The notes beneath the pieces were generated by a model, which was not told the origin of the DNA, searched no databases, and saw only the letters and a program-made list of their open reading frames with translations. A program made the position numbers and the translations under genes. Source: a bacterium (GTDB lineage: Bacteria > ARS69). From it: 5,095 nt of DNA. The stretch spans positions 1 through 5,095 of the forward strand of contig JALGZO010000766.1 of NCBI GenBank assembly GCA_025774865.1. Direction: 5' to 3'. Shown here one piece after another: positions 2,685 through 4,869 of this stretch. How positions within the stretch are numbered: the stretch's first letter is position 1; every line of letters starts with the position of its first letter.

Positions 2685-2693
2685 AAAGGAGGA
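2685..2693 (+). promoter_or_regulatory. Strong ribosome binding site fixing the start at ATG 2701
   Basis: AAAGGAGGA lies 7 bases before ATG 2701-2703. It is a near-perfect complement of the 16S rRNA 3' end. It decides the start: the frame is open back to about 2500, but those codons overlap the opposite-strand gene and have no comparable site. Confidence 0.85.
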
Positions 2694-2700
2694 GTACCCG

Positions 2701-4869
2701 ATGGGCCTCATCAGTAGAGACGGAAATGCCGCCACGGTCGACCGGGGGGCGATCGACGCGCTGGCCGCCGGCCTCCGCGGCGATCTCCTGGAGCCCGACT
2801 CGGCCGGCTACGACGAGTGCCGGTCCATCTGGAACGCCATGATCGATCGCCGGCCCGGACTCATCGTCCGGTGTGCAGGCGCCGAGGACGTCGTGCGGGC
2901 GGTGAGCTTCGCCCGGGATCACGATCTCCTGGTGGCGGTACGCGGGGCCGGCCACAACATCGCGGGGAGTGCCGTTTGCGACGACGGCATCATGATCGAT
3001 CTCTCGGGGATGAAGTCCGTTCAGGTCGACCCGGAAAGCAAGACGGCGCGGGTGGAACCGGGAGTCACCCTCGGGGAGCTCGATCAAGCGACGCAGGCCC
3101 ACGCGCTCGCCCTGCCCGTCGGGATCAACTCGACGACGGGGGTCGCGGGGCTCACGCTCGGAGGCGGCTTCGGGTGGCTCAGCCGCAAGCACGGACTGAC
3201 CGCCGACAATCTGGTCTCGGCGGACGTGGTGACCGCCGCGGGAGAGCTCGTGACGGCCAGCGAGACACAGAACGCCGATCTCTTCTGGGGGCTTCGAGGA
3301 GGCGGCGGAAACTTCGGCGTGGTCACGTCGTTCGAGTTCAAGCTGCACCCGGTGGGGCCGGAGGTGCTGTCCGGCCTGATCGTTCATCCGTTCGCCGAAG
3401 CCGGCAACGTGCTCCGCCACTACCGGGAATTCTGTGCGCAAGCACCCGAAGAGCTGACGGTGTGGGCCGTGATGCGCAAGGCTCCGCCGTTGCCGTTCCT
3501 TCCCGAAGACGTCCACGGGACCGACGTGGTCATCCTGGCGGCGCTCTACGCCGGGGACATGGCGAGCGGCGAGACCGCGCTCCAGCCGCTTCGTTCGTTC
3601 GGAAACCCGATCGCGGATGTGATCAGCCCGCACGAGTTCACGGGGTTCCAGGCGGCATTCGATCCGCTGCTCACTCCGGGATTCCGCAACTACTGGAAGT
3701 CGCATGACTTCCACGAGCTCAGCGACGATGCCCTCGACACGTTGATCCGCTACGTGGGTACTCTTCCGAGCCCTCACTCCGAGATCTTCATCGCGCAGAT
3801 GGGCGGCGCAACGAATCGCGTCGCCGCCGATGCCACGGCGTATCGTCACCGCGACGTCGAGTTCATCATGAACGTTCACGGTCGTTGGGAAACCGCGGCC
3901 GAGGACGAGAGCAGCATCTCGTGGTGCCGGGAGCTCTTCGATGCCATGACTCCCTTCTCCACCGGCGGCGTCTACGTGAACTTCATGACGGAGGAGGAAG
4001 AGCAGCGCGTGCAGGCGGCGTACGGCGACAGCTATGATCGGCTCGTTCAACTCAAGAGCGGCGGCTCCGGAGAAGGGAGGACTCTCTTGAACGAGCCGGC
4101 GAGGCCGGTGGTCGATGTCGAAGAATTGCGCACGGCGGTCCAGGCCGAGTACGAAGCAGTCGCCGCCGATCCGCAGCGCGGATACCATTTCCACACGGGA
4201 CGCCCGTTGGCGGCGATGCTCGGCTACACGGACGAGTGGCTGACGGGAGTGCCGGAGAGCTCGATCGAGTCGTTCGCGGGAACGGGGAATCCCTTCAGCC
4301 TGGGCCCGCTCGAAGTGGGCGAGAACGTGGTCGACATCGGGTGCGGCGCGGGGATCGACAGTTTGATCGCCGCCCGCATGGTCGCTCCCGGTGGGCGCGT
4401 GGTCGGCGTGGACATGACACCGGCCATGCTGGACAAGGCCGCGGCCGGCGCTCGGACCTCAGGTCTGGAGAACGTCGAATTCCGAAAGGGATTCGGCGAG
4501 GACTTGCCGGTTGAGAGCGGGTGGGCGGACGTCGTCATCTCGAACGGGGTCCTGAACCTCATGCCGGACAAGAACGCGGCGCTGTCGGAGATGGCTCGCG
4601 TCCTCAAGCCGACCGGACGGCTCCAGATCGGTGACATCCTCGTCCAGAAGCGGGTCTCGGAGGAGGCGAAGCAACGAATCGATCTCTGGACCGGCTGAAT
4701 CGCCGGTGCTCTGCTGGAGGCAGAGCTCGAGAACACGGTGGTGGCGGCCGGTTTCACCGACTTCGAGATCGCCTGGCGGGCGGAAGTCTTCGCCGGGGCT
4801 CCCCAGCAATCGAGCGCAGCTCACTTTGGCACGCTCGGGATCAACTTCCGGGCGCGTCGTTCCCGCTAG
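2701..4869 (+). CDS. FAD-dependent oxidoreductase fused to ArsM-like SAM methyltransferase; probable selenoprotein read through UGA 4696
   Basis: Reading TGA 4696-4698 as Sec666 gives 722 residues ending at TAG 4867-4869; read as a stop it gives 665. Residues 1-452 are a VAO/BBE-type FAD oxidase: RGAGHN (81-86) with His85 as likely covalent flavin ligand, GINSTTGVAGLTLGGGFGWL (141-160) and FWGLRGGGGNFGVVT (195-209). The second flavin-linking Cys of bicovalent enzymes is absent. The usual KYDPxNxFRxNQNI tail is replaced by the linker SGGSGEGR (453-460). Residues about 470-722 are a class I SAM methyltransferase: VVDIGCGAG (543-551) binds SAM, Asp571 in GVDMTP should contact it, then VVISNGVLNLMPDK (611-624) and DLWTG-U-IAGAL (661-671). 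The last is where this group and ArsM enzymes have a conserved Cys. The Cys in ISNCV of true ArsM is Gly616 here, so arsenite as substrate is uncertain. A linked oxidation and methylation of a small substrate or metalloid is an inference. Confidence 0.85.
4075..4089 (+). promoter_or_regulatory. Possible internal ribosome binding site and TTG start for a free methyltransferase
   Basis: GGGAGG at 4075-4080 is followed after 6 bases by TTG 4087-4089, in frame with the fusion (codon 463). Initiation here would give a 260-residue methyltransferase if the UGA is read as Sec, about the size of free-standing relatives. The site falls exactly at the domain junction, in the Gly/Ser linker. It may be active, a relic of a former separate gene, or chance. 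Confidence 0.35.
4696..4698 (+). other. In-frame TGA, probable selenocysteine codon (Sec666)
   Basis: The codon sits between GAT CTC TGG ACC GGC (DLWTG) and ATC GCC GGT GCT CTG (IAGAL). From memory, relatives have Cys here (WTGCIAGAL), as ArsM enzymes have a metalloid-binding Cys in 'GCxxGA'. The 56 following codons keep the same frame with about 79% G/C at third positions. They encode family-typical blocks such as AGFTDFEIAWRAEVFAGAPQ and FGTLGINFRAR. An in-frame TGA at a conserved Cys with coding conserved on both sides is the classic sign of a selenoprotein. A single-base nonsense mutation or sequencing error is the alternative. Confidence 0.7.
4708..4726 (+). promoter_or_regulatory. Candidate bacterial SECIS stem-loop downstream of the UGA
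   Basis: GCTCTGC (4708-4714) and GCAGAGC (4720-4726) form a perfect 7-bp stem with the loop TGGAG (4715-4719). The loop begins 16 bases after the UGA. Known bacterial SECIS elements lie directly downstream of the UGA inside the coding region, with the apical loop roughly 16-37 bases away and a G in the first two loop positions; G4716 fits. A short lower stem CCG (4703-4705) with CGG (4736-4738) is possible. SelB carrying Sec-tRNA would bind it. The stem lies in the conserved codons for ALLEAE, so some of the pairing could be chance. Confidence 0.6.

Follow-up and report, generated by a model that had tools for sequence, protein, structure and literature searches.

Organization of the locus

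The window, the whole 5,095-nucleotide stretch of a bacterial contig analysed here, carries a long ORF on the forward strand (Table 1). From ATG 2701 the frame is open up to a TGA at codon 666, and past this codon another 56 open codons lead to a TAG. The coordinates given in the preliminary description are exact, and the motifs that it quoted (IAGALLEAEL, VFAGAPQ and GINFRAR) lie in frame after the TGA; standard annotation would indeed cut the protein at 665 residues, as that description warned. Two further proteins are encoded upstream. Positions 216-1394 specify a protein of 392 aa that has no Pfam match and, by eye, a hydrophobic stretch at its C terminus. It has a distant paralogue within the same genome (G000:C715) and one further match (G032); the same-genome match of the window's upstream protein (P0003) is a distant paralogue only. 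Positions 1394-2671, on the minus strand, encode a right-handed beta-helix protein with weak similarity to NosD.

Table 1. Features of the long ORF and of its selenocysteine (Sec) site in the window
Feature	Position	Strand	Details	Basis
Shine-Dalgarno AGGAGG	2687..2692	+	8 nt upstream of ATG 2701	Sequence
FAD_binding_4/BBE domain, EncM-like flavin oxidase	2701..4086	+	Aligned residues 13-452	Pfam, PDB 6fye
Internal Shine-Dalgarno GGGAGG and in-frame TTG	4075..4089	+	GGGAGG 4075-4080, TTG 4087-4089; possible separate methyltransferase start	Sequence
ArsM-like SAM methyltransferase domain with probable Sec	4087..4866	+	Post-UGA residues included	Pfam, NCBIfam, alignment, predicted structure
UGA codon, probable Sec666 of the long ORF	4696..4698	+	Residue 204 of the domain	Cys/UGA column in all aligned homologues
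Putative bacterial SECIS hairpin	4708..4726	+	Stem 4708-4715/4719-4726, apical loop GGA 4716-4718	Fold, covariation, Sec-only occurrence, synonymous constraint
TAG stop of the full-length selenoprotein	4867..4869	+		Sequence

At the base composition of the window, 56 open codons would arise by chance in ~24% of cases, and their openness by itself is weak evidence for coding. The stretch after the UGA is nevertheless more than a chance opening, because its G+C content at codon positions 1/2/3 is gene-like (0.70/0.54/0.79, collapsing to 0.53/0.61/0.53 beyond the TAG), its residues can be aligned with ArsM relatives from several phyla, every homologue that aligns at the interrupting codon carries Cys or UGA there, and the synonymous codons immediately downstream of the UGA are strongly conserved.

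Probable selenocysteine at a conserved ArsM position

The preliminary description proposed that the UGA encodes Sec666 in place of a conserved ArsM cysteine, and suggested counting Cys and TGA at this position among homologues. In all ArsM-like homologues that can be aligned there, drawn from 98 relatives, a scan of named genomes and wider samples, the column holds Cys in 53 sequences, an in-frame UGA in 37 and no other residue; only sequences aligning at the UGA column were counted. The collection scan used one protein as its query, a profile built from seven diverse Sec forms being too divergent. The closest homologues (75-67% identity), from KSB1, an unclassified bacterium, Chloroflexi and Acidobacteria, all carry UGA rather than TGC or TGT. 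The site corresponds to Cys174 of CmArsM and Cys156 of human AS3MT, in keeping with the proposed replacement of a conserved cysteine.

Directly downstream of the UGA lies a hairpin with an 8-bp stem and a GGA apical loop, which is separated from the UGA by 17 nt; a folding energy of -15.5 kcal/mol is obtained for the region 4699-4735. These values agree with the published bSECIS rules as quoted in PMC13188914, namely a stem of 4-16 bp, a loop of 3-9 nt with G in one of its first two positions, a distance of 16-37 nt from the UGA and an MFE of -7.5 or lower. A search of the window against Rfam returned no SECIS-like family. At least seven of the eight pairs together with a G-first loop are found in 35 of the 37 UGA homologues and in none of the 53 Cys homologues, a count that allows two fixed registers, the window's own and one six bases further downstream, with both registers likewise tried on the Cys set. 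Only on inspection of the sequences did the second register become apparent, and four loci (L022, L040, L047 and L055) were then rejected as exceptions, as their hairpin is present six bases further downstream. In two Sec homologues (L132 and L136) the hairpin fits neither register, with 5/8 pairs formed.

The hairpin is also conserved, with covariation. Across 15 Sec sequences, 95.8% of alignment cells pair, compared with 29-54% after shifting one strand by 1-3 columns; compensatory change on both sides is seen in four of the eight stem pairs. Synonymous codon identity among 12 close Sec orthologues is 88% across the seven hairpin codons, compared with 46% upstream and 45% downstream. The constraint acts at the RNA level, and it is located just where a SECIS element is required.

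The window belongs to a genome bin of 4.7 Mb in 785 contigs (92.65% complete, 8.3% contamination), in which all of the selenocysteine genes that the preliminary description proposed to look for are present: selC, a tRNA-Sec scoring 72.7 bits with the anticodon tca in ARAGORN, along with genes for SelB, SelA (543 bits) and SelD. They lie on four contigs, none of which is the window contig, and because they are spread in this way, joint contamination is an unlikely source. Tetranucleotide correlations between contigs were too noisy to place the window contig in or out of the bin. SelD, too, is a selenoprotein in this genome, with an in-frame UGA at the active site (SHTAG-U-ASK; L061:1417-2400, G000:C477, minus strand).

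Fold of the methyltransferase domain

Residues ~470-710 are grouped with ArsM-like methyltransferases by both Pfam and NCBIfam. The AlphaFold2 model of the domain has a mean pLDDT of 93.5 and is also confident after the Sec, where the 56 post-UGA codons complete the ArsM fold. Its top fold matches are CmArsM (4fr0, Z 27.0; 6cx6, Z 26.8) and CrArsM (5evj, Z 25.7), followed by matches at 21.5 and below. The structural alignment with ArsM extends beyond the Sec through residue 260, the last residue, and the Sec aligns with the Cys of the ECLxGAL motif in CrArsM and CmArsM, which is Cys174 in CmArsM numbering. The human equivalent of CmArsM Cys174, Cys156 of AS3MT, is required for both methylation steps (PMC3877260). 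As modelled, the product has an ArsM fold and belongs to the class I SAM-dependent methyltransferases, and its SAM chemistry probably resembles that of ArsM.

An EncM-like oxidase joined in frame

The first 450 residues of the ORF, which do not figure in the preliminary description, appear to be an EncM-like FAD oxidase domain. Residues 13-452 match EncM (PDB 6fye) at 408 bits over nearly its full length, the FAD domain scores 118 bits in Pfam, and the motif GAGHNIAG, a candidate for the covalent-flavin His region, is present. The BBE match covers only positions 1-29 of 45, and the conserved tail KYDPxNLFRLNQN is absent and replaced: stand-alone FAD oxidases at 63% identity (Phyllobacterium compared) finish with LKTKYDPDNLFRLNQNVQPI, and in the window this is LKSGGSGEGRTLLNEPARPV. 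This stretch encodes GGGAGG, followed after six bases by TTG 4087, near the position of the ATG at which stand-alone methyltransferase relatives start. A frameshift was considered as the cause of the lost tail and rejected, as neither of the other two frames at the junction restores YDPxNLFRLNQN.

The EncM-like domain would be co-produced with the methyltransferase in one ORF, and the 722-aa product might be a genuine bifunctional enzyme acting on one substrate by coupled flavin oxidation and methylation. A single open frame from an ATG with a strong Shine-Dalgarno sequence, a Gly/Ser-rich junction (SGGSGEG) and the fusion of known Sec ArsM-like proteins to partners such as AhpD and DUF2284 speak for such coupling. 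However, no FAD domain was found in the examined flanks of any other methyltransferase locus (orthologues at 48-75% identity), no plasmid record matches 80% of the full-length ORF, and the oxidase tail has been replaced by sequence containing a Shine-Dalgarno motif and a TTG start. These observations leave the bifunctional enzyme doubtful. The best fit is an oxidase ORF that was run into the leader of the methyltransferase, either by a deletion or by an assembly join; the fusion may be an accident or of recent origin. The best plasmid match reaching the methyltransferase part, from Phyllobacterium, was rejected as a fusion, since it consists of an FAD oxidase gene with an unrelated gene downstream of it. 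A possible further fusion was noted at L055 (G035:C268, reverse strand), where a Sec ArsM-like domain continues in frame into a radical-SAM-like motif, CNLACTHCLY.

Loss of the other arsenic-binding cysteines

The preliminary description spoke of Sec at a metalloid- or thiol-binding position; an otherwise ordinary metalloid site around the Sec is not supported. Classical ArsMs in the comparison have an N-terminal Cys pair, a Cys in G-C-G (Cys72) and a Cys in SN-C-V. In the window and the other Sec forms all of these are replaced: the N-terminal pair is absent, the Cys72 equivalent is T or V, and the SNCV Cys is typically G. Written in the order C174, C72 and SNxV, the patterns are CCC in 45 sequences, UTG in 11, UVG in 10 and CVG in 8, with a search using the NF041537 model yielding a further 15 UVG and one UVA. 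None of the 37 Sec forms keeps any other arsenic-binding Cys tested, so the selenolate stands alone. Eight orthologues carry a lone Cys, among them three that are closely related to a Sec form. The phylogenetic tree places the window in a starred clade made up of 12 Sec and 3 lone-Cys sequences (15 in all), separate from the three-Cys ArsMs, although the Sec forms taken together do not form one clade.

An arsM gene has been defined by at least three of the four As(III)-binding cysteines 44, 72, 174 and 224 (PMC5552862); because the other ligand cysteines are lost in the Sec forms, the window falls outside this definition, keeping only the 174 position, as Sec. The sole other Cys of the domain sits in the SAM motif DIGCGAG. 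The domain scores 212.2 bits against the NCBIfam arsenite methyltransferase model NF008823, below the curated cut-off of 263, and the same genome encodes a separate, classical three-Cys ArsM (L018). The name 'arsenite methyltransferase' is not justified for the window domain, and binding of free As(III) by three cysteines is unlikely.

A true arsenite methyltransferase could still be argued for, in which Sec merely replaces Cys174 while small-molecule thiols supply the missing ligands and As(GS)3-type complexes are methylated. The fold and the Sec position are shared with CmArsM Cys174 and human Cys156, NCBIfam gives related Sec proteins this name, and methylated arsenicals can do with fewer ligands, since the human mutants C32S and C61S still methylate MMA(III) although no longer iAs(III) (PMC3877260). 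Set against the absent cysteines, the sub-threshold score and the classical ArsM already present in the genome, this alternative is unlikely. We also consider it improbable that the window represents a distinct ArsM-fold family with one selenolate as its only ligand and a non-arsenite acceptor, joined here to an EncM-like oxidase that couples oxidation to selenolate-assisted methylation.

Among the neighbours in related loci, the only suggestive ones come from two near-identical Chloroflexi loci. There, an ArsR-type HTH/rhodanese gene (L070:3873-4538 and L071:2816-3481) shares 4 nt with the beginning of the Sec methyltransferase ORF, an arrangement that would suit the chemistry of metalloids, sulfur or selenium but is no proof of it. 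In L065 a cupin gene is situated upstream of the Sec methyltransferase, and by eye L021 seems to have one there too.

A proposed lone selenolate in methyl transfer

From comparative evidence, UGA 4696-4698 is almost certainly read as Sec, and the identification of Sec666 in the preliminary description is very likely correct, given the Cys/UGA column, the sel genes and the Sec-only hairpin. The genome's own SelA, SelB, SelC and SelD would decode the codon, directed by the hairpin at 4708-4726. That the UGA is instead an ordinary stop, a mutation in a pseudogene or an error of sequencing is extremely improbable, although standard annotation would call a stop and the open codons could arise by chance: 36 further loci, spread over several phyla, have UGA in the same column, the covarying and synonymously constrained hairpin is confined to Sec forms, the Sec machinery is complete, and termination at the UGA would deprive the fold of its last strands.

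The joint reading of Sec decoding and an ArsM-fold methyltransferase with a lone selenolate is highly probable. The widespread ArsM-like set to which the product would belong keeps one Sec, or in some lineages one Cys, at the CmArsM Cys174 position. Placed beside the SAM methyl group, the lone selenolate may bind or activate one soft acceptor at a time; candidates would be an arsenical bound to a single thiol, or a species of another metalloid, a heavy metal or a chalcogen. Alternatively, the selenolate itself could be alkylated and then pass the methyl on. A soft, singly co-ordinated acceptor is put forward tentatively.

To our knowledge, Sec has been little studied in methyl transfer, and the natural lone-Cys orthologues of Azoarcus, Aromatoleum and Chelatococcus are ready controls for the contribution of selenium. 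Annotation routinely cuts selenoproteins short, and in the case of the window protein both a selenoprotein and a complete methyltransferase would be missed. The absence of every other tested arsenic-binding Cys from 37 of 37 Sec forms also calls into question the name 'arsenite methyltransferase' for ArsM-like selenoproteins in general.

Comparison with known families

Sec forms of ArsM-like methyltransferases have been on record from 2007 onward, and the window is a further member. PMC13188914 catalogues an arsenite methyltransferase selenoprotein (UxxG, NF008823), citing Fomenko et al. 2007; three NCBIfam families of ArsM-like fusion selenoproteins are listed in PMC13188914, and a Sec arsM is mentioned in PMC2398784. 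New here are the lone-selenolate pattern and an unlisted FAD-oxidase/methyltransferase architecture whose reality is uncertain.

The window shares with the NF008823 UxxG entry a Sec at the ArsM catalytic Cys, with the motif U-I-A-G, but its domain falls below the cut-off. The window domain lacks the other arsenic-ligand cysteines, which the 2007 examples may lack as well. With NF041537 (ArsM-AhpD), NF041536 (ArsM-DUF2284) and NF047649 (methyltransferase/UXPK-star double selenoproteins) it shares the ArsM-like domain with UxxG. These models are among its best NCBIfam matches, yet the window has no AhpD, DUF2284 or UXPK part, and its scores are far under their cut-offs (231/510, 217.5/575 and 203.8/460 bits, respectively). 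The domain scores below the curated cut-off of every ArsM-like model that it matches. The NF041537 profile gave no match above its cut-off in sets of 96 and 119 genomes; loci found with this model have, as in the window, one Sec and no other ligand Cys. The ORF resembles EncM (PDB 6fye, 4xlo) over its first ~450 residues, but lacks the C-terminal BBE tail and is joined in frame to a methyltransferase. Finally, the domain resembles CmArsM, CrArsM and human AS3MT in its fold (Z 27.0, 25.7 and 20.1) and in the position of the Sec, whereas their three- or four-Cys As(III) site is absent and, unlike them, the window domain stops soon after the methyltransferase core.
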